NCBI RefSeq assembly: GCF_002163585.1
Contig: NZ_CP015579.1
Location: 1,736,001 to 1,800,000, forward strand
Direction: 5' to 3'
Source: Tatumella citrea
GTDB lineage: Bacteria > Pseudomonadota > Gammaproteobacteria > Enterobacterales > Enterobacteriaceae
DNA length: 64,000 nucleotides
Part shown: positions 2,712 to 47,252 of the stretch, in pieces
Numbering within the stretch: the first letter of the stretch is position 1
Layout of the letters: each line of letters starts with the position of its first letter
Program-made: the position numbers and the translations under genes
Notes under the pieces: model-generated
What the model was told of the DNA's origin: nothing
The model's input: the letters and a program-made list of their open reading frames with translations, nothing else
The model's database searches: none

Positions 2712-3620
2712 ATGGAGTTAAACCAGCTAAGATGTTTTATTGCAGTAGCGGAAGAATTGCATTTCGGGAAAGCTGCTGCAAAAATGAATATGATGCCGGC
2801 GTCTTTTGGTCGGTTTATTAAGCTGTTGGAAAAAGAGTTCGGCCAGAGGTTACTTAATCGCTCAACCCGGAATGTTTCGCTGACACAGAACGGAATTATC
2901 TTTCTTGAAGAGGCAATTAAAATAGTCTCATTGGCAGATCAGCTAACTCTTCGGTTTAAAACTATCGGGAACAATATAAACCACCCGATGCGTATCGGCG
3001 CTATTGACAGTGCAGCTGCAGGGTTGTTACCAAATATTCTAAATATTTACAGGAAATTTCACCCTGATCTGGATATCCATTTACAGGAAGATAAAAGTAT
3101 TAATCTTATTCCCCGGCTTAAATCAGGCTGGTTGGATATTATATTTGTCAGGCCACCGGAACGGTATGATTCAGCAATAGAATTCAGGCATCTTACCTTC
3201 GAAAACTTTGTCCTGGCGGTTCCGGTATCTCATCCGCTGGCCACCAGAGAATCAGTCACTGTTGATGAAATTGCTCAGCAGTCACTTATCCTGCCTGAAA
3301 GGAGGTTACGGCCTCATAGCCATGATTTGTCAATGAGTATTTTCCGTAGTGCTGGTTATCAGCCGCGAATATCCCAGTACGCAGACGAGAAATATACGAT
3401 TGTTAACCTGGTTTCTGCCGGATTAGGGATAGCCGTTGTGCCCGCTTATCTCAGGCAACAGCACTTCCCTGGCGTCACCTACATCAGATTAGAGCTATCC
3501 CAAAATATCGTAGGTTTGCCACTGAGCGTGGCATGGATGAAAGGGAATGAAGATTATAATCTTAACGATTTTTTGCAATTGCTGGAAGAACATATCCAGT
3601 CACTGATAAAAGATTTGTAG
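2712..3620 (+). CDS. LysR-family transcriptional regulator (BenM/CatR-like)
   Basis: A 302-residue LysR-type regulator. The first 60 residues form the winged HTH (MELNQLRCFIAVAEELHFGK), and the rest is the periplasmic-binding-protein-like effector domain. The opening words match the BenM/CatR/CynR branch, which often senses aromatic or organic acids. I chose the ATG at 2712, preceded by AGAGG, over a start seven codons upstream because family members begin at MELxQLR. It faces the membrane dehydrogenase operon, so control of that operon is the natural inference. Its stop codon lies inside a perfect 12-bp hairpin. Confidence 0.85.
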   Translation: MELNQLRCFIAVAEELHFGKAAAKMNMMPASFGRFIKLLEKEFGQRLLNRSTRNVSLTQNGIIFLEEAIKIVSLADQLTLRFKTIGNNINHPMRIGAIDSAAAGLLPNILNIYRKFHPDLDIHLQEDKSINLIPRLKSGWLDIIFVRPPERYDSAIEFRHLTFENFVLAVPVSHPLATRESVTVDEIAQQSLILPERRLRPHSHDLSMSIFRSAGYQPRISQYADEKYTIVNLVSAGLGIAVVPAYLRQQHFPGVTYIRLELSQNIVGLPLSVAWMKGNEDYNLNDFLQLLEEHIQSLIKDL

Positions 3621-3647
3621 CTGCAGGGTTCACGACCCTGCAGCTAC
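3617..3647. terminator. 12-bp perfect hairpin between convergent genes
   Basis: GTAGCTGCAGGG (3617-3628) and CCCTGCAGCTAC (3636-3647) form a perfect 12-bp stem with a 7-nt loop. The stem includes the LysR stop codon and ends 5 bp before the convergent MFS stop. Neither side has a clean U-run, so termination efficiency is uncertain. Confidence 0.6.
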
Positions 3648-3651
3648 AGGC

Positions 3652-4827
3652 TTAGCGACGTAACCTGGTAATAAGCCCCAGGCCCACCACACAACAGGCA
3701 GCACCCACCGCAAACACCGAAGAGTAACCCAGCTGAGTCGCCAGGACCCCGGTCAGCGGTCCGGTTGCCGCATATGAGACATCCTGAAACGCGGCGAAAG
3801 TCCCCATTGCGGTCCCTCTGACCTGTGGTTCGACACGTTTTACCACTTCGACCCCTAATGCCGGGAAGATCAGCGAACAACCGAAACCAGTCAGTGCTGT
3901 TCCTGCCAGCGCCAGTGCAGGTTGCGAGGCAAAAAAGATTAACAACAGACCCAGCGTTTCAATCACAAACGAAACCAGCGCCACCGGTAATCCACCCATT
4001 TTATCTGGCAGGTGACCAAAGAAAATTCGCATACAGACAAAGGCACCGCCAAAACAGGTGAGTGCCAGCCCGGCATGCGGCCAGCCCTGAGAGGTAAAGA
4101 GCAGCGAAACAAAAGTACCGATCACCGCAAACCCGACGCCCTGCAAAAATAGCGCAATGCCCAGTGGCCAGATATGACCGAGCATTTTCCACATTGATAC
4201 CGGTTGTCCGTGATGCGGGGCGACCCCCGGAATCCGCAGATTATTCAGTAACCCCAGCAGCGGTAAAATAATCACCGATGCCCCGAGCGCCAGAAAGCCC
4301 CAATGCTGGCTGATGGCCATACCCAGAGGTGCACCAACTGCCAGTGCTCCGTACATCGCCATACCGGCCAGTGACATGACTTTTCCGGATTGTTGCTTGC
4401 TGACCAGACCCAGCCCCCAGGTCAGGTGACCGGTAATCAGCTGACTCTCACCAAACCCGAGTACCAGTCGCCCGGCCACCAGAATCCCGAATTTAACCAT
4501 GTTATCCACCGGTAGCAGGTCGGCAATGATATAAGTGGCTCCGGCCAGAATGCAGGCACTGATTCCCTGGAGATTAGAACGTTTTCCTCCGCGGCTGTCG
4601 GCCAGACGACCGGCATACGCACGGGTCAACACGGTCGCCAGAAACTGAATGCCTACTGCAATACCAACCATGGTATTACTCAGACCAAGCTGGTGGTGGA
4701 CATACAGCGGGACCACCGGTAACGGCAGCCCGACACACAGATATGAGAGAAACAGTGAAACAGAAATAGGTAACAAATGGCGGCTGCTGGCAGTCGTTGG
4801 CGGAAGAGTGGTAGTTTCAGATGACAT
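3652..4827 (-). CDS. MFS transporter, YhhS/YfcJ-type
   Basis: Inner-membrane major facilitator of about 391 residues with 12 predicted hydrophobic helices. It resembles the UPF0226 proteins YhhS and YfcJ of E. coli: the opening [17 protein letters not shown] segment, the [11 protein letters not shown] motif A between helices 2 and 3, and the VLGFGES segment line up. These transporters are poorly characterised, and overexpressed YhhS has been linked to arabinose or drug efflux. Two starts are possible: GTG at 4839 or ATG at 4827, neither with a strong ribosome binding site. The 260-bp upstream region carries repeated TAACG palindromes. Confidence 0.8.
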
Positions 4828-33181: not shown

Positions 33182-34048
<867 letters not shown>

Positions 34049-34281: not shown

Positions 34282-35115
34282 CTAATGACCGATGGATTTA
34301 GCCGCCGCCTCTTTGACTAGTTTATCGATATTGCCGGAAGTCCGTTGCTGGTCGACAAATTTATCCAGTAATGCCAGGTCGGCAGCAGAGATATCTTTGC
34401 GCAGACCAAAGCCAGCTGGTAACGGAGACAGCGCCGGTTTAGGTTCATAGACAGCCAGATTTGCCGGATGCGCCGCCACTACAATCATATTGGTGCCTAT
34501 ATCATCGGCATAAACATCAGCACGGTGCGACAGAAGTGCCATTGTGGCTTCCTGGGCTCCTGGCAAACGCATAATATGTGCTTTTTTCAATGTCTGAGTG
34601 ACAGTTGAGTCGGCAATCGACCCTGACATTACTGCAACTGTCAGATCAGGGCGGTCAAAATCTGCGACGCTATCGGGCTTCGATAATTTTGAATTATGTT
34701 TGTCATACGAGAAGGTGACGCTGGAATAGATAACCGGAGAAGAGAATTCGATACTTTTCTCACGTTCAGGGGTCTGCGACAGAGACATCCCCATATCCCA
34801 GCGATTGGCCTGAATACCCGCGACCATGGTATCCCAGGTGGTGTTGACCATCTCAGCCTTTACATGCAACACGTTAGTGGCAAATTCCTGACAAAGCTGA
34901 ACAAAAGGGCCGCCCCATTGCTGCGTCAGCGGGTCATGAATGATATACGGTGGTGTTACGGCTGTGGCACATTTCAGTACCCCGCGCGCTTTTACCTCCT
35001 TCCATAAATCATAGTTACCCTGCGCCTGTGCCGGAGCAGCAATCAGATAACCGGCCATCAAAGTAGTGCATAGCAGTGAACCGTACTTCAGAATGCGGGT
35101 GAAATGAGTTTTCAT
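34282..35115 (-). CDS. Polar-amino-acid-type ABC transporter substrate-binding protein
   Basis: A 277-residue periplasmic binding protein of the SBP_bac_3 family. The signal peptide ends near AQA-QG (residue 32). The mature part has a VLKCATAVTPPYI opening strand, NRWDMGMSLSQTPEREKS in lobe 1, and DIGTNMIV in lobe 2. It would capture an amino acid, opine or amine-like compound for the two permeases and ATPase encoded 5 kb upstream in the same direction. It is last in the minus-strand series of the island, 113 bp after the His/Cys-rich gene. Confidence 0.88.
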   Translation of the reverse strand: MKTHFTRILKYGSLLCTTLMAGYLIAAPAQAQGNYDLWKEVKARGVLKCATAVTPPYIIHDPLTQQWGGPFVQLCQEFATNVLHVKAEMVNTTWDTMVAGIQANRWDMGMSLSQTPEREKSIEFSSPVIYSSVTFSYDKHNSKLSKPDSVADFDRPDLTVAVMSGSIADSTVTQTLKKAHIMRLPGAQEATMALLSHRADVYADDIGTNMIVVAAHPANLAVYEPKPALSPLPAGFGLRKDISAADLALLDKFVDQQRTSGNIDKLVKEAAAKSIGH

Positions 35116-35228
35116 TGTTTTTCCTCGGCGTTAACGTGATGACGGATGATAGTTTTTCGGGCTATGTTTGCTGAGTCAGCGCGCTGGCAGCAGGCTTTCG
35201 TCGGCACAATCTCTGTAGTGTGAAAATG

Positions 35229-35759
35229 TCAGGTGCTTTGTTCCAGATTGCGGAAATAGAGCACCTCCAGCTGTCTGAGAATCTCTTTAGGTTCCCCCGG
35301 ATACTCTTCCTGAAATACTCCCGCATCAGATTCAACAGTGATCATCCATTGCTGCGTCTGCCGGGTCATTAAACAGTGCGGGAAATTCATATGGTGATGC
35401 CAGGCAACACCCTGTTCGTTGAGTTGACGGACTCGTTGTAACAATTCTGACTCGATGTCCTGTTCACTCTGCGTAAAGCGGATATCCGGGTTAAGAATGT
35501 CGTCACCATGCAGCAGCCTGACCAGCTGCTTATCAGCCTCAGGAAAACTGACCGAGGGGGATATATACGCAATATTGTGCTGGTTATCTTCGACAACCAC
35601 GGCATACAAATCCGGGTAGGGATTGAAATGGCAGCCTGGTGAGATGGCATGGGAATGCCACGGCCTTCCGTCAGCAATAAATGACATTGCCAGCGGAATA
35701 ACTTCGTCCATTTCAATTTCATGGTACGTCAGTAATGAGTGGCTAATGATCTTAGGCAT
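35229..35759 (-). CDS. Unrecognised His/Cys-rich protein, island paralogue A
   Basis: A 176-residue cytoplasmic protein (no signal peptide, no membrane helix) that I do not recognise. It is clearly paralogous to the 178-residue protein at 44704. Shared words in order: WHxH (34-37), SPGC (40-43), NPY (46-48), VVEDN (55-59), FPEADK (72-77), LLHGDDIL (82-89), WHHHM (120-124), FPxCL (126-130) and VES (142-144). The invariant His, Cys, Asp and Glu look like a metal site or catalytic centre. It lies 14 bp after the DAO oxidoreductase gene, so it is probably an operon partner in the same pathway. Confidence 0.75.
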   Translation of the reverse strand: MPKIISHSLLTYHEIEMDEVIPLAMSFIADGRPWHSHAISPGCHFNPYPDLYAVVVEDNQHNIAYISPSVSFPEADKQLVRLLHGDDILNPDIRFTQSEQDIESELLQRVRQLNEQGVAWHHHMNFPHCLMTRQTQQWMITVESDAGVFQEEYPGEPKEILRQLEVLYFRNLEQST

Positions 35760-35773
35760 GGTATTCCTTATTC

Positions 35774-37075
35774 TCAGGAGAGTTTCAGCCGGTCTTTCGC
35801 TTTGTATAACGGGAAAATCAGCCCGCTGGCGTACTGTTTAACTGACTGGAAAAGGATGTCCCGTTGTTGTTTCACGAACAGCGGAGATTCTGCCGCAGTG
35901 ATCTGCTCACTGAGGATGTCAGCAATAATTTTTCCGGCAGCGACACTCATCGCCACACCGCGGGTAGAAAAACCGATACAGGAATAAAAACCCTGATCAT
36001 GAATCTGCAACGACGGGATCCATTCATCTGCAATGGCGCAATAGCCTTCCCAGTAATATTCCAGCTCAATTCCGGCCAGTGACGGAAACAGAGTTTTCAT
36101 CCGCAGCTTTGCGTGCTCCATACCGTAATTTTTGCCACCGGGAGTAAAAACTGCGCCACCTGACTGTAAGCGTCCTAAAGAGTCGAGCCGGCCAAAACCG
36201 CCAGATTTCCTCAGGTCGGTAAAGGTAATCCCTTCGGGTAACACTGTGCGCCGCTCCTGTTCTGTTAGCGGGCGGGTCATGGTGTGATAGAGGCGGACAG
36301 GAATGACTGACTTGCCCAAAGGCGCTGCCAGATGGCGGGTATAGGCATTAGTAGCAATCAGTACTTTAGTGGCATTGAACTGACCGCGTTCGGTGGTCAC
36401 CCTGTACTGGGCCTGCTGTTTGTCTATGGCAGTCACCTGATGATTTTCCAGAATTTCGCAGCCGGCAGTCAGAGCTGCCCTGGCCAGCCCCTGGGCTAAT
36501 GCAAATGGCTCGACCGTGCCACCGGTTTTCTGAAACCAGCCACCGAGATAGCCATGAGCGCCGGTAGATTGTTTAACCTCGTCGCCTGACAGCCATTGAA
36601 TATCAATTCCGCGTTGCTGCCATGACTGATAAACACGTTTCACTCTGGCCAGTGATTTTTCTGAGTGTCCCGGCTGGATAAATCCCCGCTGAACCGGATG
36701 GCACTGAATCTGATGCTGTTCAATTAAGCGGAACAGATATTCAGGCGCTGCCACCACCTGAGCTGCATACTGTTCACCTTTGGCATTGCCAATACGCAGC
36801 TTAATATCATCTGCGGTCAGGGCGCCCGGAAACGTGGGTACCACCGCGCCACCATTTCTTCCGGAGGCGCCTGAGCCAACGGTGGCCGCTTCCAGAAGTA
36901 ATACCGACATTCCCTGATTTGCCGCGTGAAGTGCGACAGACAGCCCACAGTAACCGGCACCGATCACTACCAGGTCGTAGCTATCACGGCTCGCCCGGTC
37001 AGTGGGTTGTATTCTCTCTTTACTGACTACCGACCAGTAAACGTCGTTTATGTCACCATCACGTCGGCTGAACAT
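35774..37075 (-). CDS. FAD-dependent oxidoreductase (DAO family, PuuB-like)
   Basis: A 433-residue flavoenzyme of the D-amino-acid-oxidase/glycine-oxidase superfamily. The FAD-binding GAGYCG lies at residues 39-44, and SGASGRNGG follows around residue 68. The C-terminal YWEGYCAIADEWIPS and GFYSCIGFSTRGVAMS segments are typical of gamma-glutamylputrescine oxidase-like and related amine oxidases. It would oxidise a C-N bond of an amine or N-substituted amino acid. GGAG precedes the ATG. It lies within the minus-strand island operon, between the racemase-like and His/Cys-rich genes. Confidence 0.85.
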   Translation of the reverse strand: MFSRRDGDINDVYWSVVSKERIQPTDRASRDSYDLVVIGAGYCGLSVALHAANQGMSVLLLEAATVGSGASGRNGGAVVPTFPGALTADDIKLRIGNAKGEQYAAQVVAAPEYLFRLIEQHQIQCHPVQRGFIQPGHSEKSLARVKRVYQSWQQRGIDIQWLSGDEVKQSTGAHGYLGGWFQKTGGTVEPFALAQGLARAALTAGCEILENHQVTAIDKQQAQYRVTTERGQFNATKVLIATNAYTRHLAAPLGKSVIPVRLYHTMTRPLTEQERRTVLPEGITFTDLRKSGGFGRLDSLGRLQSGGAVFTPGGKNYGMEHAKLRMKTLFPSLAGIELEYYWEGYCAIADEWIPSLQIHDQGFYSCIGFSTRGVAMSVAAGKIIADILSEQITAAESPLFVKQQRDILFQSVKQYASGLIFPLYKAKDRLKLS

Positions 37076-37153
37076 AGTAAACTCCGGAAACCATTAAAAT
37101 TTACATTAGCTACGGGCTGTACTCCCGGAATTTAACTTCCGGCAGGAAACGGG

Positions 37154-37939
37154 TTAACTGCTGAATAAGCTGCGAATTTTATTCAGATATTCGCCCGGAG
37201 GCGGGGCAAAGGTCAGCGCCTGACTTTTTGCCAGCCCAATGTTCTGATGGATGCCAATCATGGCTTCCAGATACTTGATGGCGACTGCCGACGAGTCCAT
37301 CACAGGAACCGTCGTCCCGGAGACCAACTGATAACCTGCTTTACGTAGTAACGGGCCGTAGTAGGCACATCCCACCAGAATGATTTCAGCGCCATCGGCA
37401 ATACACTCACGGGCGGCCTCTTCAAACAGTGGGATAAACTGCTGATGGGGTGACGTCACTGCGCTTTTCAGCATGTCGGCGGTGGAGAAGGGGTTAATAG
37501 TCCGGACCGGATCCTCAATACCCCGGGCGGATAAGCCGTAAGCCATGATGTCGCGTTCGATGGCTACACGGGTTTTATCAGAGACGGTGATCACGGCAAA
37601 TTTGCGGGCCATGGCCAGCGAGGCCAGCAGAGATTGCTCCCCGACTGATGCAACAGGAATATCGAGAATTTCCCTGGCTTCCCAGAGCGCATCATTCCAG
37701 CAACCGAGAAAAATGCCGTCATAGCCTGCATCCCGTGCCTGCAGGGCTTCTTCAAGTATCAGTACCGAATTCATATGTTCGGCATACAAAGAACGGGTAA
37801 ACCCGACACTTGATGCCGGAAAGCGGAAGTCAACAGTGGTGCCCGGGGCCATCACCGAACGGATACTTTGTTCCAGTGTGGGCCATAAATCATTAAGCGA
37901 TTCTGAGCGGGCAGTCGGGTGAATCCAGCAAATTTTCAT
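37154..37939 (-). CDS. Asp/Glu/hydantoin racemase-family protein
   Basis: A 261-residue cofactor-independent racemase or isomerase fold. Two catalytic-type cysteines sit in FLGCWND (Cys80) and LVGCAYYG (Cys191), one in each half. The family includes aspartate, glutamate, hydantoin and allantoin racemases and maleate isomerase. AGGGG upstream supports the ATG at 37939; an upstream start 13 codons earlier lacks support. In the island it could invert or isomerise the imported substrate before oxidation. Confidence 0.82.
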   Translation of the reverse strand: MKICWIHPTARSESLNDLWPTLEQSIRSVMAPGTTVDFRFPASSVGFTRSLYAEHMNSVLILEEALQARDAGYDGIFLGCWNDALWEAREILDIPVASVGEQSLLASLAMARKFAVITVSDKTRVAIERDIMAYGLSARGIEDPVRTINPFSTADMLKSAVTSPHQQFIPLFEEAARECIADGAEIILVGCAYYGPLLRKAGYQLVSGTTVPVMDSSAVAIKYLEAMIGIHQNIGLAKSQALTFAPPPGEYLNKIRSLFSS

Positions 37940-38004
37940 ATAACCCCTGAACGGAACAATAAGTATGTGTAGTGACACGGTGGCCGTCTGTCGGCCACCA
38001 CCGC

Positions 38005-38706
38005 TTAGCGCATGCAGACACCACCGGAAATCACCAGGGTCTCACCGGTGACATACCCCGGGGCTTCACACAATTTCCAGACCCACTGTGCAATCTCTTC
38101 AACTCTGGCTGCTCGTTTCATCGGTACTTCCATGACACCAGCTTCCAGCCTGCCACCCGCCAGTGTGCCTTCGGTTTCCACCCAGCCGGGTGCAATGGCA
38201 TTCACTACGATTCCCCGGTCAACCAGCTCAATCGCCAGAGATTTAGTCAGTGCGACCACGGCGGCTTTCGAGGCGCAGTACAGTAACTGATTGCGTGATA
38301 CCGCAAAGGCATCGACTGAGGCAAAAAACAGCATGCAACCGCCAGACTCCGCCATGAAATCACGGCCGGTGCGGGCCACATTTAAGGTGCCAAGCACATT
38401 GATATCGAAAATGCGGCGATAAATAGCACTGGTATAGCTTTCGAGACTGGATACGGGGAAAATCCCCGCTGCGTTGATCACTGCCGATAATTTTCTACCT
38501 GCCAGCGCATCAGCAATTGCGGCGTTCAGTGCTTCCTGATCGGTAATGTCAGCCTGAACCGCAGTAAAATATTCGCTGCTCTCCTGCACCGTCAGATCGA
38601 CCCCGATAACCTGCCAGCCTGAGTGCATAAAATGGGTGGCTACGGCCTTGCCCATGCCCGATGCGGTGCCGGTAACCAGTGCTACAGGATGAGTACGTTC
38701 AGTCAT
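38005..38706 (-). CDS. Short-chain dehydrogenase/reductase (island)
   Basis: A 233-residue classical SDR. The nucleotide loop is TGTASGMG (residues 12-19), NAAG lies at 78-81, and the active-site residues are Ser130, Tyr143 and Lys147 in YCASK. The fold resembles the 2,3-dihydroxybenzoate dehydrogenase/3-oxoacyl reductase group. It starts 9 bp after the flavin monooxygenase gene, and the racemase gene follows 65 bp on. Substrate unknown; a hydroxyl or carbonyl intermediate of the same pathway is likely. Confidence 0.87.
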   Translation of the reverse strand: MTERTHPVALVTGTASGMGKAVATHFMHSGWQVIGVDLTVQESSEYFTAVQADITDQEALNAAIADALAGRKLSAVINAAGIFPVSSLESYTSAIYRRIFDINVLGTLNVARTGRDFMAESGGCMLFFASVDAFAVSRNQLLYCASKAAVVALTKSLAIELVDRGIVVNAIAPGWVETEGTLAGGRLEAGVMEVPMKRAARVEEIAQWVWKLCEAPGYVTGETLVISGGVCMR

Positions 38707-38715
38707 GATGGTTCC

Positions 38716-40008
38716 TTATAAAGAAGCGAAATCAGAAGAGGGGACTGCAGCTAACCCGGGATGCACTTTTTCCAGCAAATCCAGGGTTTTTACCGTGTCA
38801 TCAAAATTTTGTTGCCAGAGGCGGCGTACAATATCGATTCGAGTGTCCGGTTGTTGGTGCTCTGCCATCAGCGCGGCAATATTGCTCACGCCCCGCTGCT
38901 GTAACTTAATCATTCGCGCAATTAACGTGGTCTGCTGGCAGTAGACCGGCCACTGTGCACCGCGTGGCGCTGCCAGTCCGACAAAATAGAGATTTTCACT
39001 GCGGGTAGGCAGAGTCATTGCAGCGGTGCGTAAAGGAACGCCTTCCTGCCAGTCAAGCTGCGACTGATCGAGAAATGGCAGGCTGACATTAAAGCCGGTA
39101 GCCCACAGGACTGAGTTATATTCGGCAGTGCTGCCATCGGTGAAGGTCACGACCTTACCGCAAATATCAGCGATGCCGGGCCGTACTTTGATGCGCCCAT
39201 GCTGAATCCAGTAGAGCAGCAGGTTGTTCACTACCGGTGGTTGCTTTTCAAGATCCCAGGTTTCCGGTTCCGGCATGCCCGGATAATTCTTCCAGTTACC
39301 CAATGACACCAGGGTCAGAGCCTGAGCCAGTGAGTTTTGCAATTCCGGCGGCAGTTGATTAATAAACGGAAGTTCGGCCCGTGGCAGGCCAAACAAGGCT
39401 TTGGGCTGAAATACCTGACCACGACGGATAACAACATCGGTCTCAAACCGGTGTTGTGCAGCATCCACAGCCAGGTCACAGCCTGAATTTCCACATCCCA
39501 CAACCAGCACTTTACCTGCCAGCTGTCCGGTATTGTTGTACTGGCAGGAGTGTAATGAAATACCGGTGTAATTTTCAGCACCGTCCGGAAAAGCAGGGTC
39601 CCATAAATGGCCGTTGGCAACGATAACTCCGGCAAAGTGATGGCTTTCGCCATTCACCGTTACCGTCCAGCCATCTTCTCCCTGTTTGCCTGCCGGCACT
39701 ATCTGTTCGACACAGGAATTAAAGCGAATCAGCGGATATAAATTAAAATGAGTGGCATAACTTTCAATATAGGCTTTGACCTGATCCCGGCCCGGATAGA
39801 GCGGATAATCATCAGGCATTGGAAAACCGTCAAAACAGGAAGTACTTTTTGGCGTAATTAAATGCAGTGCCTGATAGTCATCGTGCCAGTGTCCGCCAAC
39901 CTGTTGTGATTTTTCGAAACAGACAGCTTCAATATTCTGGTCCCGCAGTGTTTTCAGGGCTGCAAGCCCTGCAGCGCCGGCACCAATAATACAATATTGC
40001 AATACCAT
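38716..40008 (-). CDS. Flavin-containing monooxygenase (FMO family)
   Basis: A 430-residue class B flavoprotein monooxygenase. FAD-binding GAGAAG lies at residues 9-14 and NADPH-binding GCGNSG at 171-176. Between them is YTGISLHSCQY (147-157), the FMO fingerprint with Tyr in place of the first Phe. WATGF occurs near residue 320. KSTSCFDGFPMPDDYP also fits the family. Such enzymes oxygenate nitrogen or sulfur in small molecules (trimethylamine, cysteine derivatives). It heads the second block of minus-strand island genes, 247 bp after the permease gene. Confidence 0.88.
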   Translation of the reverse strand: MVLQYCIIGAGAAGLAALKTLRDQNIEAVCFEKSQQVGGHWHDDYQALHLITPKSTSCFDGFPMPDDYPLYPGRDQVKAYIESYATHFNLYPLIRFNSCVEQIVPAGKQGEDGWTVTVNGESHHFAGVIVANGHLWDPAFPDGAENYTGISLHSCQYNNTGQLAGKVLVVGCGNSGCDLAVDAAQHRFETDVVIRRGQVFQPKALFGLPRAELPFINQLPPELQNSLAQALTLVSLGNWKNYPGMPEPETWDLEKQPPVVNNLLLYWIQHGRIKVRPGIADICGKVVTFTDGSTAEYNSVLWATGFNVSLPFLDQSQLDWQEGVPLRTAAMTLPTRSENLYFVGLAAPRGAQWPVYCQQTTLIARMIKLQQRGVSNIAALMAEHQQPDTRIDIVRRLWQQNFDDTVKTLDLLEKVHPGLAAVPSSDFASL

Positions 40009-40198
40009 AGTAATTTCTCCTGATATAAAACTTAATATTCACCAAGCTGTGCTTATATAAATAAGCTGATTATTTTCTGTGGTGAAGAGCGAAAAACTAT
40101 TGCGTTGTATAGCTGTTGCCTATGCCTGTTTTATTGACGTGATAATACCCATTCCGCCGCCTGTGCGGGTGTGTTTATTTTGTGGTTAATCAGAATCA

Positions 40199-40213
40199 CT
40201 GAAAAGTTTTCAG
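40199..40213. promoter_or_regulatory. Palindrome between ABC permease and monooxygenase genes
   Basis: CTGAAAA-G-TTTTCAG is a perfect 15-bp palindrome in the 247-bp gap between the two minus-strand gene blocks. It may be an operator or a weak terminator. A TGCCTATGCC word nearby (40111-40120) resembles the other island motifs. Confidence 0.4.
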
Positions 40214-40255
40214 ATATATATAACTCGCCGTAAATAATATTTAATCCGGCATGGG

Positions 40256-40930
40256 TTATAGTTTTATTTTGTTTAATAAAATTTTTTCATAATAAGTCAC
40301 CGCGCGGGTGAGCGTGAAGGCAATAATAAAATAGATCAGTGCTACGGTGGTCAGTATCTCAACCGGTCGGGCGGTGGAATCAGCAATCATTTGTCCCTGA
40401 TACATCAGATCGCCCATACCAACCGCTGATATCAACGCGCTCTCTTTAAACAGAGTGACGCTGTTGGAAAGCAATGTTGGTACTGAGCGAATCAGCATTT
40501 GTGGCAGGAAAACAAATAACAACATGACCGGAAGTGACATTCCCAGTGAGACACAGGCATCTTTTTGTTCTTCTCCCACCGACTTAAGGGCTGAACGGAA
40601 ACTTTCACTGGAGATAGCTCCCATATATAAGGTCATGGTCAGAATGGTCGATACCTGATTCCCCAGATTAATACCCAAAATCGCCGGGAGACAAAAAAAG
40701 AACCAGAACAGCTGGACCAGAATAGGGGTGCCGCGAAATACTTCCACATAAGTGCCGGAGATTGTTTTGAGTAATATATTTCCAGACTGGCGCAGCATGC
40801 TGACAATAAAGCCTAATGCCAGGCCGAGAACCAGACTAATTGCGGTATAATAGAGGGTATTTAATAATCCTGAAAGCAGTGCGTTTTTATAGGCAAAGAT
40901 AAAACTGAATGCGGTTGAGAAATCGACCAT
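40256..40930 (-). CDS. Polar-amino-acid ABC transporter permease (second)
   Basis: A 224-residue inner-membrane permease of the HisM/GlnP type with five hydrophobic helices. The cytoplasmic EAA-like loop that contacts the ATPase appears around ACVSLGMSLPVMLLFVFLPQ. TLYYTAISLVLGLALGF at the N-terminus is also typical. It starts 9 bp after the first permease gene. Two different permeases imply a heterodimeric channel. Confidence 0.9.
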   Translation of the reverse strand: MVDFSTAFSFIFAYKNALLSGLLNTLYYTAISLVLGLALGFIVSMLRQSGNILLKTISGTYVEVFRGTPILVQLFWFFFCLPAILGINLGNQVSTILTMTLYMGAISSESFRSALKSVGEEQKDACVSLGMSLPVMLLFVFLPQMLIRSVPTLLSNSVTLFKESALISAVGMGDLMYQGQMIADSTARPVEILTTVALIYFIIAFTLTRAVTYYEKILLNKIKL

Positions 40931-40939
40931 TATGCTCTC

Positions 40940-41611
40940 CTACCTGCTCATTTTACGCAGACGTTTTTCAAACATTCCGACAATTTGTGATAATGGCAAT
41001 GACACCACAAAGTAAATAATAGCGACGGTGGTGTAGACCTCTATCGGACGATAATATTGTGTCGCCAGAGTTTTCCCCTGATACATCAGATCGGCAATCG
41101 CCACGATAGCCACCAGGGATGTCTGCTGTAATAAACCAATGGTATTAGTGAGCAGCACCGGAATCGCAATCATAAATGCTTGTGGAAAAATAACGTACAA
41201 CGTCTTTTTCAGTGGACTGAGACCGAGAGCAACACAGGCATCATGATGCGACTGCGGGATAGTTTGAATTGCCGCCCGGTAAGCCTCAGCATTAAACGCT
41301 GATACATTCATGCTCAGTGCCAGAATTGCCATGGTAAAGGCATCCCAGTAAACATTGAAAAAGATAGGCACGCAGTAAAATATCCAGACAATCTGCACCA
41401 GAGCAGGGGTACAACGAAATATCTCGATAAAAACCACCGCCGGCCAGCGGACGATCCGCCAGCGACACAGCGTCAGCAGGCACAGTAAAAAGCCTGCAAC
41501 GATGCCGATGGAGGCAGAAATCAGGGTCAGTTTAATTGTCATGATAAGACCGCTGAGTAACTGCGGCCAGCCGTTGATAATAACGCTCATATCCCATGAA
41601 AATGATGTCAT
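40940..41611 (-). CDS. Polar-amino-acid ABC transporter permease (first)
   Basis: A 223-residue permease homologous to the next gene, with the same five-helix layout and an EAA-like loop (ACVALGLSPLKKTLYVIFPQ). TIKLTLISASIGIVAGFLL at the N-terminus and FRCTPALVQIVWIFY are family landmarks. It follows the ATPase gene by 9 bp in a compact three-gene importer operon. Confidence 0.9.
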   Translation of the reverse strand: MTSFSWDMSVIINGWPQLLSGLIMTIKLTLISASIGIVAGFLLCLLTLCRWRIVRWPAVVFIEIFRCTPALVQIVWIFYCVPIFFNVYWDAFTMAILALSMNVSAFNAEAYRAAIQTIPQSHHDACVALGLSPLKKTLYVIFPQAFMIAIPVLLTNTIGLLQQTSLVAIVAIADLMYQGKTLATQYYRPIEVYTTVAIIYFVVSLPLSQIVGMFEKRLRKMSR

Positions 41612-41620
41612 AACCGGGCC

Positions 41621-42400
41621 TCAGGATATTGATTCAACATGGAGTATTTTTTTCAGGAAATTTGCGGTTCGGGGTTCTGCCGGGCGGGTAAAAATTACCT
41701 CAGGAGGTGCGTCTTCCACCACCTGACCGTCAGCGCAAAATACCACCCGGGTAGCGATACGTTTGGCAAACCCCATGTCATGAGTGACTATCATCATTGA
41801 CATATTTTGTGCCGCCAGCTCCATCATCACTCCTTCAACTTCAGAAACCAGTTCCGGGTCCAGTGCCGAGGTGACCTCATCGAACAGAATAATTCCGGGG
41901 TCTAGCATTAAAGCTCTGGCAATGGCGACCCGCTGTTTCTGGCCTCCGGACAACATTCCCGGATAGGCTTCTGCGCGATTTTGCAGGCCAAGACGCGCCA
42001 GTAGCTGCATTGCACGCTGAGTCGCCAGTGCCTTATTTTCGCCACGGGATCTCACCGGGGTAAGGATCAGGTTTCCGAGTACCGTCAGATGAGGAAACAG
42101 AGTGTAATGCTGGAAAACCATACCGATTTTCCGCTGGGATTCTTTGTGGATTTTGTTCGGCATTTGCAGATTGACGTCTGCAGAGATATAGCGCTGACCG
42201 GAAAAGTCGATAGTGCCGGAGTCGATTTTTTCCAGTCCCATAATACACCGCAACAGGGTACTTTTGCCGCTACCGCTGGGACCGATAACCACCACCCGCT
42301 CACCGGGTTCCATGTGAAAATTCATTCCATTCAGTATCGGTAATACGCCGTTGTTAAAAGATTTAACTAAGTTTTGTACAGACAGAAATGACGATGTCAT
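41621..42400 (-). CDS. Polar-amino-acid ABC transporter ATPase
   Basis: A 259-residue ATPase of the GlnQ/HisP group that powers the island importer. Walker A GPSGSGKST (residues 40-48), Q-loop FQHYTLFPH (97-105), signature LSGGQ (150-154), and Walker B IILFDE (170-175) followed by TSALD are all intact. GGAG seven bases upstream supports the ATG at 42400 rather than a start 14 codons earlier. It is the first gene of the importer operon, facing the LysR gene across a 597-bp spacer. Confidence 0.93.
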   Translation of the reverse strand: MTSSFLSVQNLVKSFNNGVLPILNGMNFHMEPGERVVVIGPSGSGKSTLLRCIMGLEKIDSGTIDFSGQRYISADVNLQMPNKIHKESQRKIGMVFQHYTLFPHLTVLGNLILTPVRSRGENKALATQRAMQLLARLGLQNRAEAYPGMLSGGQKQRVAIARALMLDPGIILFDEVTSALDPELVSEVEGVMMELAAQNMSMMIVTHDMGFAKRIATRVVFCADGQVVEDAPPEVIFTRPAEPRTANFLKKILHVESIS

Positions 42401-42997
42401 CAGCACTCTCCAGAATTCATTGTTATTCCCGGAAACGGGCACGTAATACTTACGCCAGCGAATAAACGGGTATCACCCGGTATATAACTGGCAGAAAGAA
42501 TGCAGTTATCCGATATTGCGGGAATTAATGGTTAAGAATACCCTGCCAGGTCATTTCCCCGAATAACCAGTGCTTCACAATACAATTACATTAATAGGGT
42601 TTATCAGGAAAACAATGAAGCAGGTGATGCCTTTCCTTTTTACAGGATCTGGCTATACCTGCAAAGCTTTATCAGACATTCCTATGGCAAAAAAGGGCGT
42701 TTAACCCTCATTTTAATATGTGCCATTACTTAATATTCATTAGGAATCATAGGTATGTATTTTTACTGCAGGCAGGAAATGAACAGAAACAGCCTATACA
42801 CACTATGCCTTACCACTCATCATTCATATTTCCTATATGACAACCCTATGGAAATATCAGATGCTAAGTTTAATCGCAGCACCGTAGTAAAAGACGGTGC
42901 CTGTCAGATTATTTTATGAAATAACATGATAAATGTTCTGTGCGCTAACGGCACCCGGTTGAATAAGGGTTTTCATCTATTCGGAGATGTTGGTTCT
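42401..42997. promoter_or_regulatory. 597-bp divergent control region of the island (importer/LysR)
   Basis: No gene is supported here. The spacer is AT-rich and holds several CCTATG or CATAGG words: CCTATGG at 42681, CATAGG at 42748, TCCTATA at 42831 and CCCTATGG at 42844. A perfect inverted repeat ATTTCC-N16-GGAAAT spans 42828-42855. This is the most likely LysR binding zone for importer control. Confidence 0.6.
42828..42855. promoter_or_regulatory. Candidate LysR operator of the island
   Basis: ATTTCC (42828-42833) and GGAAAT (42850-42855) form a perfect inverted repeat that encloses TATA and CCCTATGG words. A related CCCTATAGGG-GAAT occurs upstream of the other island operon at 46001. 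Confidence 0.5.
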
Positions 42998-43921
42998 ATG
43001 ACTTTACAGCAACTGCAATATTTTCTTTCTGCCGTAGAGTACGGCACATTATCGAAAGCAGCAGAGCATCTCAATATTGCTCAGCCTTCATTATCTGATC
43101 AGATTCTGCGACTCGAAAACTCTTTAGGAACACATCTGTTTATTCGTACTAACCGTAAACTGATTCTGACTGAGGCGGGGCATTGTCTGCTGCCACATGC
43201 CAGAATTTCGGTGAATGCGGCTCAGGAAGCGCACAATGTGGTGCAGTCGGTACGAAAGTTAAAAGGCGGAGCCGTTAGTTTTGGGACTTTTGGTAGCTCT
43301 TATCTCTATTTTCTGACAGACCTGATTGAAGAATTTCACCAGGCGTTCCCTGATGTAAAACTTAAAGTTGCCGGTCTTAATTCCAGTGAAGTGGCGGATG
43401 CTGTGATGGATGGCCAAATAGAGGCCGGATTAGTAATGTTACCGGTGAATAATAAAAGCTTAATTGCCAGTGAACCGGTCTGGTCGTCACAGGTCGGTTA
43501 TATCAGTGCCAGTGAAAAACGCCTGGAAGGGGAGAAAACTATTGAAGCACTGCTGGATGCTCCGCTTATTCTGAGTGAAGTTAAATGGCGAAATACTGAT
43601 CCCATCAGAAAACTACTGGCAAAACGTGCCAGCAGTATCGGTAAACAGCTCGAACCTATTATTGAAGTTGAATATCAGCAGACCGCATTTGAACTTGCCG
43701 CCAGAGGAATAGGCGATGTCATTGCCACCCGGCCTATAATGCATCAGTTAGGCTACGAAAAGAAATTAAAATGGGTGCCAATAACACCACCGGTGTATGA
43801 AGTATTTGGCTTTATTTATCGCTCAGATACTGCAATATCCAGCGGTACCCGGGAAATAATATCCATGATGAGAAAATACCTGGCAAAAATACAGTCTATT
43901 TACGATCATATTGAACAGTAA
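42998..43921 (+). CDS. LysR-family regulator of the catabolic island
   Basis: A 307-residue LysR-type regulator. The N-terminus MTLQQLQYFLSAVEYGTLSK leads into the HTH (AAEHLNIAQPSLSDQILRLE), followed by the effector domain. I chose the ATG at 42998 because the family opens with this word; the extended frame from 42926 adds 24 unsupported residues. It is divergent from the importer operon and convergent with the last gene of the second island operon, placing it at the centre. It probably senses the imported compound or a pathway intermediate. Confidence 0.9.
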   Translation: MTLQQLQYFLSAVEYGTLSKAAEHLNIAQPSLSDQILRLENSLGTHLFIRTNRKLILTEAGHCLLPHARISVNAAQEAHNVVQSVRKLKGGAVSFGTFGSSYLYFLTDLIEEFHQAFPDVKLKVAGLNSSEVADAVMDGQIEAGLVMLPVNNKSLIASEPVWSSQVGYISASEKRLEGEKTIEALLDAPLILSEVKWRNTDPIRKLLAKRASSIGKQLEPIIEVEYQQTAFELAARGIGDVIATRPIMHQLGYEKKLKWVPITPPVYEVFGFIYRSDTAISSGTREIISMMRKYLAKIQSIYDHIEQ

Positions 43922-43937
43922 TATGTCGACTGACTGA

Positions 43938-44678
43938 CTAGATAATATATCCGTTCGCCAGCCATCCACCGTCAACCGGTAATATATGTCCGGTAATCAT
44001 TGCCGCCTGATCACTGGAAAGAAAATAACAGGCATTCGCTACTTCTTCAGGCTCAGCCAGCCTGCCTAACGGGGTTCTGGCTTCGACACCACGCAGATTA
44101 TACTGGCCTTGTTCGATGAGTGACTGCACCATCCGGCTGCGGATACCGGTCGGGGCCACAGCATTCACCCGGATACCATATCTGCCCCATTCAACGGACA
44201 GACTCTCGGTGAGCGTATGCAATGCTCCCTTCGAGGCGCAGTATGCGGCCCTTTGTGGCGCTCCGGACTCTCCATATACAGAACTGATAAAAGTAATACT
44301 CCCACCGCCGTGGGTGGCCATTTGCCTGCCTGCGGCCTGAGCGACGAGAAAACTCCCTAACACATTGACCTCCAGAATATGACTGAAAGTCTGTGCACTG
44401 ACCTCAAGAGAAGGGCCAACAACATTAATTCCCGCGCAGGAGATTGCGCAATCGATGCCGCCAAAAGCATCACACATTCTCTGTATTGCATGCTCAATAT
44501 CTTCACTTCGGGTCACGGAACCCGTGACCCCGATAGCCGCGGGCCCTGTAGATTCAAGCGCGCTCTGTATCGAGGCTTCACTCTGGCTAAGCAGGCAGAC
44601 CTGGTCTCCGGCATTAAGATAACGTCTGGCAATCTCCAGCCCAAGTCCGCTGGCCCCGGTCACAAGCACTCTTTTCAT
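43938..44678 (-). CDS. Short-chain dehydrogenase/reductase (second island SDR)
   Basis: A 246-residue SDR with TGASGLGL near the N-terminus, a Ser pair (132-133), and Tyr146-Lys150 in YCASK. The C-terminal MITGHILPVDGGW is the usual cofactor and tetramer segment. The ATG at 44678 is chosen because MKRVLVTGASG is the natural opening; a TTG three codons earlier is too close to AGGAG. It is last in a three-gene operon with the His/Cys-rich paralogue and the flavodoxin-fold reductase. Substrate unknown. Confidence 0.88.
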   Translation of the reverse strand: MKRVLVTGASGLGLEIARRYLNAGDQVCLLSQSEASIQSALESTGPAAIGVTGSVTRSEDIEHAIQRMCDAFGGIDCAISCAGINVVGPSLEVSAQTFSHILEVNVLGSFLVAQAAGRQMATHGGGSITFISSVYGESGAPQRAAYCASKGALHTLTESLSVEWGRYGIRVNAVAPTGIRSRMVQSLIEQGQYNLRGVEARTPLGRLAEPEEVANACYFLSSDQAAMITGHILPVDGGWLANGYII

Positions 44679-44703
44679 TTCCGCCAATACTCCTGTCTGT
44701 AGT

Positions 44704-45240
44704 TTACTGGTGTTCCGGCGCCGAAAAATAGAGTGACTCGATCACCGATAACTGACTTACGGGTTCCGCTTCATAGACTTCACAGAGCCGGGTTGAAGCC
44801 GATTCCACGCTAATTGCCCACTGTCCGGGTTGCGGGTTAAGCAGGCAGTCAGGGAAATGCATATGATGGTGCCAGGCGTGATGGTGATTATGAAGCTGCT
44901 GAACTACAGCCACTGCACTGCTGTCTGCCTCTGATGACTCATGGCAATCGCAGGAAGCGTCCAGAATATCGTCACCATGCAGCAGTTTTACCAGGACTTT
45001 ATCTGCTTCAGGAAATGCTGCGGACTTGCCAAGATATGCAACTCCGTGGGTGTTATCTTCGACCACCATACAGAACAGATCGCCATACGGATTGTACTGA
45101 CAGCCTGGTGACAGCACATGAATATGCCAGTTGCACTGGCTGTTGTGCAGGTGCCGGCCAATGTCGACACAGCTTTCTGCAGGGACAATGCTGTATTCAA
45201 TTCCGCCAACATTGATTGTTTCCAGAATCGTGATTTCCAT
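44704..45240 (-). CDS. Unrecognised His/Cys-rich protein, island paralogue B
   Basis: A 178-residue soluble protein of unknown family, paralogous to the one at 35229. It keeps WHxH (38-41), SPGC (44-47), NPYGDL (50-55), VVEDN (59-63), FPEADK (76-81), LLHGDDIL (86-93), WHHHM (123-127), FPDCL (129-133) and VES (145-147). It has extra His and Cys not found in paralogue A (CDCH near residue 97; HNHHHAWHHHMH, 117-128), compatible with metal binding. It lies 20 bp after the quinone-reductase-like gene and 25 bp before the second SDR. Each island operon carries one copy, which suggests two related but distinct steps. Confidence 0.75.
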   Translation of the reverse strand: MEITILETINVGGIEYSIVPAESCVDIGRHLHNSQCNWHIHVLSPGCQYNPYGDLFCMVVEDNTHGVAYLGKSAAFPEADKVLVKLLHGDDILDASCDCHESSEADSSAVAVVQQLHNHHHAWHHHMHFPDCLLNPQPGQWAISVESASTRLCEVYEAEPVSQLSVIESLYFSAPEHQ

Positions 45241-45260
45241 AAATGTCTCCTCACAGAAAA

Positions 45261-45794
45261 TTAATTTCTAAGAAATTCCATATATTGCCGGGTGTTCAAT
45301 GCGATTTTGTCCTGATATTCAGGATCATCAGCATCGTCCTGAGTGCCGTAAAACGCGTGGAATCCGTCGTAGTGCGCATCAATAAACTTGCATACGCATT
45401 CAAAAGGGAGCAGCAGCCCGGCCAGAGTGCAGGCCATCCGGCCCTGAACTGAATAGGACTGTTCCCTCATCCCGGCGGATACCGCCAGACGGACTCGTTT
45501 ACCGCGCATTGCTGTCCCGCCACCAAATGCCCAGCCTCTGCGGATAACATCATCCTGCCATTGTTTGAGGAGAGGGGGAGTACTGAACCAGAAGCAGGGA
45601 AACTGGATAATCAGCTCATCGTGATTTTCGATCAGTTGCTGCTCACTGAGGATATCGATATTGCCATCGGGGTAGGCTGTGCAGATATTATGCAGCGTAT
45701 AATTTTCAGGTTGTTTAGCTGCTTCGGCCATCCATTGTTTATGCACTACCGATTCATCGGGTCGGGGGTGCGCAATCAGAATTAATTTTTTCAT
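45261..45794 (-). CDS. Flavodoxin-fold NAD(P)H oxidoreductase (KefF/YwrO-like)
   Basis: A 177-residue Flavodoxin_2-family protein. It begins with LILIAHPRPDESVVHK, has the FMN-contacting QFPCFWFSTPPLLKQW segment (about residues 69-84), and a GGGTAMRGKRVRLAVSAG loop. Family members reduce quinones or similar electrophiles by two electrons. It is first in the second island operon, with the palindromic CCCTATAGGG upstream. It could supply reduced flavin or remove quinones formed by the island monooxygenase; that is inference. Confidence 0.86.
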   Translation of the reverse strand: MKKLILIAHPRPDESVVHKQWMAEAAKQPENYTLHNICTAYPDGNIDILSEQQLIENHDELIIQFPCFWFSTPPLLKQWQDDVIRRGWAFGGGTAMRGKRVRLAVSAGMREQSYSVQGRMACTLAGLLLPFECVCKFIDAHYDGFHAFYGTQDDADDPEYQDKIALNTRQYMEFLRN

Positions 45795-46000
45795 CTGACA
45801 CCTTAGTTAAATTGCAGTTAAACTCTGTGCTCTGTGAAACAGGAATGCTGACCCCGGTCGTTTCAGGCCGGTATATTTACTGTGTAATGGCCCGCGGTTC
45901 GGTTGTGCTGAAAGGCATCTTCCTTACCGGAGATAAAGTTATTCTGCACATTCATGCCAAAAGGATGAATAACCGATGCGCTATAGCGAAGATAGGTTGT

Positions 46001-46010
46001 CCCTATAGGG
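46001..46010. promoter_or_regulatory. CCCTATAGGG palindrome upstream of the second island operon
   Basis: A perfect 10-bp palindrome in the context TTGT-CCCTATAGGG-GAAT, about 207 bp upstream of the flavodoxin-fold gene. It resembles ACCCTATGG-AAAT in the importer/LysR spacer, suggesting one shared regulator. Confidence 0.45.
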
Positions 46011-46160: not shown

Positions 46161-47252
46161 TTACAGCATGATAGTAATCAGATAGCCGACAAACAATGCC
46201 AGGTGTGCCGCGCCATTGAGTACATTGGTACGGCCGGTTGAGAAGGAGATTTGGCACAGTAATAACACGCTGCCCATGATCACCATCTGAGGCGCTTCCA
46301 GCCCGAAAATAAGTGGCTGTCCGGTAAAGACCGCAATCAGTGTTACCACCGGGACAGTTAATGAAATCGTCGCCAGTACTGAGCCAAAGAACAGATTCAT
46401 TGCCCGTTGGACCTGGTTGGCCAGCACCGCCTTTATCGCACCTAACCCTTCAGGGGATAAAATTAACAGCGCAATCAGGAAACCAGTAAACTGCTCTGGT
46501 GCATTCAGGTCTCCCAGCAATTGTTCCAGCACCGGGGCATTCATTTTGGTCACGCTGATAACTGCCAGCAGGTGAATGATCAGCCAGACGGCATGCCAGC
46601 CACTACTGTGGGCCGAAGGCTTACCATGATGCGGGTCACCGTCATCGCTTTCATCCTCGTGCTCGTAGATAAACAGACTCTGATGGGTTTTGGTCTGAAT
46701 AAGCAGAAATACCCCATACATGGCAGCAGAGACCGCGGCGATTAACAATGCCTGCCCGGTGGTAAAATTGCCGCCGGGTAATGCATCCGGGAACACCAGA
46801 ACCAGAATCGCTAACGGGAAAATAGCAATCAGATATTGTTTGACCCCAGCCAGGTTGACGTACTGAGTGGCAAATTTTCGGCCTCCCAGCAGCAAGGCAA
46901 AACCGACCAGACCGCCGGTCACAATCATAATGATCGAATACAGGGTGTCACGCATAAGTCCGGGGGTGGCGTTGCCGGTGGCCATCAGCGCAGAAATCAG
47001 GCTGACTTCCAGAATCACTACCGACAGTGTCAGTATCAGTGATCCGAAGGGCTCACCCAACCGGTGAGCCAACACATCGGCATGGCGTACGACACTGAAC
47101 GCACTGCACAAAATGGCGACCAGCGTAAGAATATTAATGGCAATAACGACGGGCATTGAGGTCTGATGGCTGAAAAACCATAAGACGATCAGAGCAACGA
47201 TCGGGAAAATGAGCGAGTATTCCGTATGACGGGTTTTTTCATGCGCTGGCAT
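46161..47252 (-). CDS. chaA: Ca2+/Na+(K+):H+ antiporter ChaA
   Basis: A 363-residue inner-membrane cation/proton antiporter of the CaCA family with about eleven hydrophobic helices. Both alpha-repeat segments appear: SVVILEVSLISALM near residue 100 and ILSPEGLGAIKAVLANQVQRAMN near residue 265. A cytoplasmic loop rich in acidic and His residues (EHEDESDDGDPHHG, about 196-209) is typical of ChaA. In E. coli the gene is followed by chaB and chaC; here chaB is absent and chaC is divergent. Confidence 0.94.
   Translation of the reverse strand: MPAHEKTRHTEYSLIFPIVALIVLWFFSHQTSMPVVIAINILTLVAILCSAFSVVRHADVLAHRLGEPFGSLILTLSVVILEVSLISALMATGNATPGLMRDTLYSIIMIVTGGLVGFALLLGGRKFATQYVNLAGVKQYLIAIFPLAILVLVFPDALPGGNFTTGQALLIAAVSAAMYGVFLLIQTKTHQSLFIYEHEDESDDGDPHHGKPSAHSSGWHAVWLIIHLLAVISVTKMNAPVLEQLLGDLNAPEQFTGFLIALLILSPEGLGAIKAVLANQVQRAMNLFFGSVLATISLTVPVVTLIAVFTGQPLIFGLEAPQMVIMGSVLLLCQISFSTGRTNVLNGAAHLALFVGYLITIML

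Follow-up and report, generated by a model that had tools for sequence, protein, structure and literature searches.

The interval between kdsA and chaA in the window analyzed here, a 64,000-nucleotide stretch of Tatumella citrea DNA (contig NZ_CP015579.1, positions 1,736,001 to 1,800,000), holds 13 genes: sbp, hypA, dao, race, sdr1, fmo, perm1, perm2, atp, lysR, sdr2, hypB and qor. We propose, with a probability of roughly 60%, that this island is a catabolic regulon under its own LysR-type regulator, probably acquired horizontally: an importer would bring in a zwitterionic compound of the amino-acid type, flavin enzymes would oxidize it, and HypA and HypB, which belong to an orphan protein family, would constitute the core metalloenzyme. 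The block behaves as one regulon because all 13 genes are syntenic in a second genome (G278) and because a short inverted repeat, ATAGG-N5-CCTAT, occurs in the same three promoter regions of both genomes, and again in a smaller module present in three other genera. The view of the first-pass annotation that the genes form one functional unit is borne out by these two observations. The features are as follows, in window coordinates:

33194..34048, plus strand: kdsA, left flank, outside the island (95–99% identity in five sister species)
34282..35115, minus strand: sbp, periplasmic amino-acid-type binding protein (PF00497, 59.5 bits)
35229..35759, minus strand: hypA, orphan family, 176 residues (no Pfam or NCBIfam match; AlphaFold2 model with a mean predicted local distance difference test score, pLDDT, of 91.8)
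35373..35402, minus strand: second motif of HypA, WHHHMxFPxC, residues 120–129 (H121–H123 in 140/140 sequences, C129 in 139/140)
35619..35660, minus strand: first motif of HypA, WHxHxxSPGCxxNP, residues 34–47 (H35, H37 and C43 in 140/140)
35774..37075, minus strand: dao, flavin adenine dinucleotide (FAD) oxidase of the DAO family (PF01266, 208.6 bits)
37154..37978, minus strand: race, hydantoin/allantoin-racemase-like protein (PF01177, 77.1 bits; both Cys kept)
38005..38706, minus strand: sdr1, short-chain dehydrogenase (SDR; PF13561, 132.2 bits)
38716..40008, minus strand: fmo, flavin-containing monooxygenase (FMO; PF00743, 152.3 bits)
40109..40123, no strand: probable LysR operator upstream of fmo (1 mismatch)
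40256..40930, minus strand: perm1, ATP-binding cassette (ABC) permease (PF00528; best NCBIfam model EhuC, under cut-off)
40940..41611, minus strand: perm2, ABC permease (PF00528; best NCBIfam model EhuC, under cut-off)
41621..42442, minus strand: atp, ABC ATPase (PF00005; best NCBIfam model EhuA, 275.2 versus 345.4)
42835..42849, no strand: probable LysR operator between lysR and atp (1 mismatch)
42926..43921, plus strand: lysR, LysR-type regulator (PF00126 and PF03466)
43938..44687, minus strand: sdr2, short-chain dehydrogenase (PF13561, 192.3 bits)
44704..45240, minus strand: hypB, second orphan-family protein, 178 residues (own clade; no Pfam or NCBIfam match)
45261..45794, minus strand: qor, flavodoxin-fold NAD(P)H oxidoreductase, KefF-like (PF02525, Flavodoxin_2, 129.3 bits)
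45992..46006, no strand: probable LysR operator upstream of qor-hypB-sdr2 (perfect match)
46161..47252, minus strand: chaA, right flank, outside the island (89–99% identity in five sister species)

The flanking genes are those that we take to be kdsA and chaA, and lysR is the sole gene on the plus strand among the 13, a count that replaces the fourteen genes of the first-pass annotation. Pfam and NCBIfam searches assigned all island proteins except HypA and HypB to families, in agreement with the earlier assignments (SBP_bac_3, DAO, Asp_Glu_race, two SDRs, FMO-like, two BPD_transp_1, ABC ATPase, LysR and Flavodoxin_2), so that the combination of an importer and flavin enzymes in one block holds. 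The tight spacing of 9–25 bp ascribed to many joints applies to eight of the 12 intergenic gaps (9–26 bp), but not to the remaining four (78, 113, 247 and 483 bp), the last two of which contain probable operators. Sequence comparison further suggests that the true start of race is probably position 37939, an internal Met in MKICW (comparison with locus L033), and that of lysR probably position 42998, at MTLQQL (comparison with L069).

In G278, a genome of another genus, 13 of 13 island genes are found in unchanged order and orientation, at 47–89% identity (qor is in place, at 67%), amid other flanking genes. By contrast, kdsA and chaA are adjacent in all five sister species (the five other genomes of the genus); since the interval is empty there, this spot is able to gain or lose genes. 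The orphan family is confined to one of the six genomes of the genus, the window's own, and among 295 sampled genomes of the bacterial family it was detected in two, the window's own and G278. Likewise, FMO (E ≤ 1e-90) was found in five of 392 genomes of the family (the window's own, G278, G1105, G130 and G214), with sdr1 adjoining fmo in all five; at the level of the class, FMO (E ≤ 1e-80) was detected in one of 369 genomes and, at that of the phylum, the racemase (E ≤ 1e-40) in one of 398, in both cases the window's own, the latter figure giving the background rate. Among 72,556 plasmid records, also taken as background, ten carry DAO (E ≤ 1e-90), including all six that carry the orphan family, and none gave a match for FMO (E ≤ 1e-80) or the racemase (E ≤ 1e-40). 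Four Rhizobium plasmids with a DAO of 39–40% identity fall outside these six, and the two of them that were inspected have a different neighborhood. A megablast search of E. coli genomes gave no match. The island was probably acquired by horizontal transfer, a gain in the species of the window, as opposed to a loss in its sisters, being the simplest reading. Note that the G278 contig is public as Martelella alba BGMRC 2031 (NZ_SZPQ01000009), which NCBI places in the Alphaproteobacteria, whereas our genome search assigns G278 to the same family as the window, which suggests a mislabelled record. PMC10434624 names BGMRC 2036 as the type strain.

The inverted repeat was defined independently of the window: its consensus was derived from other species and then applied to the window. 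In G1105, G130 and G214, fmo (69–74% identity) stands with lysR (65–66%), sdr1 (61–66%) and a symporter gene whose best model is ProP, under cut-off, and no further island gene was matched in the 19.9 kb around each fmo; FMO, Sdr1 and LysR are a separable module. The lysR–fmo gap of each of these three genomes contains a perfect ATAGG-N5-CCTAT, which is the only site with at most one mismatch in each 19.9 kb, and such a perfect repeat arose by chance in 1, 3 and 4 of 20,000 mononucleotide shuffles of the gaps. The 64 kb of the window contain four sites with at most one mismatch (634, 40109, 42835 and 45992), three of which lie in the three promoter regions of the island; dinucleotide shuffles yielded a site of this quality in 15 (40109), 64 (42835) and 20 (45992) of 2000 cases. 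As for G278, all four such sites in the 13.7 + 11.5 kb inspected are in the same three promoter regions. To judge from the sequence, the repeat is probably the LysR operator, and the predicted transcription units, probably under this one LysR, are fmo-sdr1-race-dao-hypA-sbp, atp-perm2-perm1 and qor-hypB-sdr2. The lysR–atp gap of G278 (L018:2582-3280) has two operator-like sites (2754 and 2947) versus one in the window.

The only other perfect repeat in the window's genome (L071, 3922-3936) precedes a Rid-family gene (3310-3690) by 232 bp. We did not adopt this gene as a member of the regulon: it is 31–36% identical to the Rid proteins of the orphan-family loci described below, little above an ordinary RidA, and by our estimate a genome of such size should contain about four perfect sites through chance alone, which counts against this lead. 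Of 20 sequences in this comparison, five that had been read in the wrong direction were left out. In G004, a sister genome devoid of the island (L073 and L085), the Rid gene is present only in broken pieces, and no operator-like site (up to two mismatches) was found near them.

HypA and HypB, which had been singled out as an unrecognized pair, lack a clear relative among solved structures; neither has a Pfam match at E ≤ 0.1 or an NCBIfam match at E ≤ 0.01, and the Pfam search of the 12 members of set A1 returned three matches, each in one member, with E values of 0.066–0.31. The two proteins are 40–41% identical over their full length, HypB sitting in a separate clade of the family. The family is rare (138 proteins found), and among the 120 of its proteins that were listed none has a Pfam domain or a functional name. 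In the alignment of 140 sequences, the WHxH-x5-C and WHHH-x5-C motifs are kept in 139–140; the other conserved residues (E57, F72, P73, D76, H84 and E165) are spread along the protein. HypA is internally duplicated, as recognized by a profile score of 63.2 compared with at most 19.3 in 40 column shuffles, the first motif being homologous to the second half. Foldseek found no match in the PDB at E ≤ 0.001 with either the whole HypA model or its first half, which is no proof of a new fold, and the single match in a viral structure library (E 6.4e-4, template-modelling score 0.2) was taken as chance. The closest known systems include the alpha-beta-beta-beta-alpha units of the SRP9/14 type, and an SRP9/14-like or dsRBD-like fold was considered for HypA.

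The conserved pattern of His and Cys points to a putative metal site, and these residues of HypA and HypB probably bind a metal. We tentatively go one step further, at somewhat less than even odds, and suggest that the family is a new class of metalloenzymes, in which two WH(x)H-x5-C sites are housed in a fused pseudo-dimer of as yet unassigned alpha-beta fold. Its members would carry out the key step of an undescribed route by which enterobacteria and alphaproteobacteria degrade a natural zwitterionic compound, either an amino acid or a betaine, and in the window they would have been joined to the lysR-FMO-SDR module by a shared operator. Should the orphan family prove to be a metalloenzyme, it would be a new one. 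The most serious rival holds that the enzymes of the island are catabolic but that HypA and HypB have no enzymatic role and serve a partner, for instance the DAO oxidase, which they would supply or assemble as metal carriers, chaperones or scaffolds. The proteins are small (176–178 residues) and rich in His and Cys, the HypA model has no significant match in the PDB, and the window's type of island has two paralogues, all of which would suit such a role. On the other hand, the residues conserved besides the motifs are scattered over the protein, as in an active site, and each alphaproteobacterial locus examined carries a single copy of the gene. We consider the carrier role doubtful, though it is the best placed of the alternatives.

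The neighborhoods of the orphan family in other genomes were scored by tblastn, because the high-GC loci yield shadow open reading frames, at 23 loci (L025 was excluded as a duplicate of L016); the counts are lower bounds, as flanks are incomplete at some loci, and the loci are not independent (five Ancylobacter, three Shinella, one Sinorhizobium and others). E1-alpha, E1-beta and a GntR regulator were found at 20 of the 23 loci, DAO at 18 (at least 41% identity; L024 and L027, with a best value of 31%, were not counted), ProC and another SDR at 16 each, Sdr2 (44–68% identity) and an E2 with an alpha/beta-hydrolase domain at 12 each, the racemase at nine, a Rid protein and an Old Yellow Enzyme (OYE)-type flavoenzyme at eight each, and an ornithine-cyclodeaminase family protein and a DadA-type oxidase at seven. 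Thus the orphan family does occur in other bacteria together with DAO, Sdr2 and the racemase, which goes against the refuting condition set by the first-pass annotation, namely that these families would not co-occur outside this locus. The locus of Alloyangia pacifica (L033) unites most of the neighborhood genes, fmo included. The alphaproteobacterial loci carry their own importer, with another binding protein and with permeases 26–35% identical to those of the window.

The E2 of these alphaproteobacterial loci resembles acetoin dehydrogenase E2 in combining a lipoyl domain with an alpha/beta hydrolase (306.7 bits), but it is 0.3 bits under the cut-off of 307, and the complex, unlike acetoin dehydrogenase, has an amine oxidase and an importer of the amino-acid type as its neighbors. 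Such a complex is absent from the window. The route in the window would end differently, since the genome has no E1-beta homologue beyond 25%.

Taken together, the families suggest the following scheme. The binding protein and the ABC importer would take up a zwitterionic compound of the amino-acid type, possibly a cyclic amino acid or a betaine, of which the racemase would present the right stereoisomer. FMO, acting with Sdr1, and the DAO oxidase, acting with Sdr2, would oxidize it at nitrogen or C–N and at hydroxyl or carbonyl positions, Qor recycling electrons or flavin, while HypA and HypB would act as the core metalloenzyme with two pseudo-symmetric His/Cys sites. DAO, Rid and ProC proteins make, hydrolyze or reduce imines. 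In the alphaproteobacteria, a related core may feed the acetoin-dehydrogenase-like complex, which would form an acyl-CoA from a keto or acyloin product; the FMO/Sdr1 module may replace this missing acyl-CoA-forming part in the window's version.

The hints that the substrate is zwitterionic, for instance a cyclic amino acid or a betaine, come from the importer, three of whose four parts are nearest to Ehu, from the ProP-like carrier in the module, and from an Arg and an Asp of Sbp. The importer resembles the ectoine importer EhuABCD in that EhuC is the best NCBIfam model for Perm1 and Perm2, EhuA the best for Atp and EhuB the second best for Sbp. It differs in that no curated cut-off is reached: 275.2 against 345.4 for EhuA, 157.4 and 135.8 against 196.95 for EhuC, 115.1 and 107.7 against 205.2 for EhuD, and 56 against 190.9 for EhuB. 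Ectoine utilization was rejected on the basis of these scores. There is no Eut model among the NCBIfam matches listed for the island proteins, and for the racemase a single NCBIfam model, other than EutA, matches at E ≤ 0.01, and there is no NCBIfam equivalog. The nearest solved relatives of Sbp are AncCDT-1 and similar proteins, with whose residues the Arg in TPER and the Asp in RADxxxxD are aligned; in amino-acid binding proteins, such Arg and Asp residues hold the carboxylate and amino groups.

The enzymes can be placed in known families. Dao scores well above the gathering threshold of PF01266 (208.6 versus 27.9), and its best NCBIfam match, aligned over the full length, is L-pipecolate oxidase AmaA (NF050086), but with 239.1 bits against a cut-off of 600. 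Race falls in the Asp/Glu/hydantoin racemase superfamily (PF01177, 77.1 versus 31) together with the hydantoin/allantoin racemases 3qvj and 5lfd; its Cys93 and Cys204, which we presume to be catalytic, align with the Cys residues of 3qvj. It differs from both in that the E values are just 6e-13 and 4e-9, and the DPG that follows the first Cys of 3qvj is lost. FMO has the marks of its family (PF00743, 152.3 versus 22), namely the Rossmann motifs GAGAAG and GCGNSG and the sequence YTGISLHSCQY, with Y for the first F. The FMO fingerprint is of the type FxGxxxHxxxY/F, that of Baeyer-Villiger monooxygenases FxGxxxHxxxW. The protein lacks the Baeyer-Villiger fingerprint, as the last position is Y and not W, although it may have the activity. 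The nearest solved proteins are the flavin-containing monooxygenases 8z12-8z17 (E about 1e-58), whose role is given neither in the entry names nor, as far as we found, in the open-access literature.

Several observations weigh against the proposed regulon and its scheme. The co-occurrence of FMO with the orphan family is thin (two of the 23 loci); sbp and lysR were found at one locus (L018, that of G278) and qor at none, the L018 flank ending before qor. Outside L018, Sdr1 matches do not exceed 35% identity and the permeases range from 26 to 35%. L034 lacks any partner gene, L038, where half of the orphan protein was matched, has only an ATPase of 28% identity, and in the flank of L028 there is no DAO. 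Nor does the window's genome contain a real homologue of E1-beta, the best match (25%) being to a 633-residue frame. The operator-like repeat is short: with up to two mismatches the window shows no enrichment (16 sites observed versus 21.3 expected), and across the whole genome a relaxed form occurs no more often than its reversed control (4+5 versus 8+7). All Ehu and ProP scores are under the curated cut-offs, and both the single nitrogenous substrate and the N- or C–N oxidations suggested by the first-pass annotation are inferences from families.

Some of these points would suit detoxification or nitrogen scavenging, in which an alkaloid-like amine of plant or microbial origin is removed through N-oxidation by FMO and C–N oxidation and no carbon reaches central metabolism. 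The FMO-type fingerprint and the poor E1-beta match are consistent with it, as is the existence in three genera of lysR-fmo-sdr1 with a symporter but without other island genes. A dedicated importer and a racemase would however be odd in a detoxification system, and the related alphaproteobacterial loci continue into a complex expected to form an acyl-CoA; we regard this explanation as improbable. A biosynthetic or tailoring cluster, in which a signalling molecule or an antibiotic would be made from an imported amino acid, is more improbable still. Enzymes of the FMO and SDR families often serve in tailoring, and the closest solved FMO relatives are of unstated role, but none of the 13 genes belongs to a synthetase, ligase or exporter family, and LysR, the importer and the oxidase, along with ProC, Rid and the E1/E2 complex in relatives, point to breakdown. 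That unrelated genes were gathered by chance in a variable spot, as the empty interval in the sister species might suggest, can practically be dismissed: it is contradicted by the identical order of 13 genes in another genus amid other flanks, and also runs against the shared operator-like sites and the repeated alphaproteobacterial co-occurrence.

The catabolic regulon that we favor corresponds to an undescribed pathway, composed mostly of known enzyme families (several of them under the cut-offs of their nearest named members) plus one orphan family. No pathway with this gene set, which the first-pass annotation had also believed to be undescribed, was found in the open-access literature, including those for tropinone, homarine and stachydrine; this is weak evidence, as it covers open-access papers only. 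The island is a bounded and testable candidate for a catabolic regulon, and the orphan family is now tied to a defined metabolic neighborhood, whose conserved partners indicate the substrates with which to begin.

Three further observations concern neighboring or related loci. The orphan-family gene of L034 (L034:5198-5719) is located on a 10.7-kb contig of a metagenome-assembled genome, near a histidine-specific methyltransferase gene. A second little-known family, of 286 residues (L016:23293-24153 and relatives), is present at ten of the 23 orphan-family loci and scores 21.5 bits with Cyclophil_like2, the cut-off being 22.7. Finally, similar open reading frames, presumably coding for a dehydrogenase subunit, occur in the window (1537-2268) and at one fmo locus (L068:2959-3684), with a common stretch around FFxPxEWQF, possibly by coincidence.

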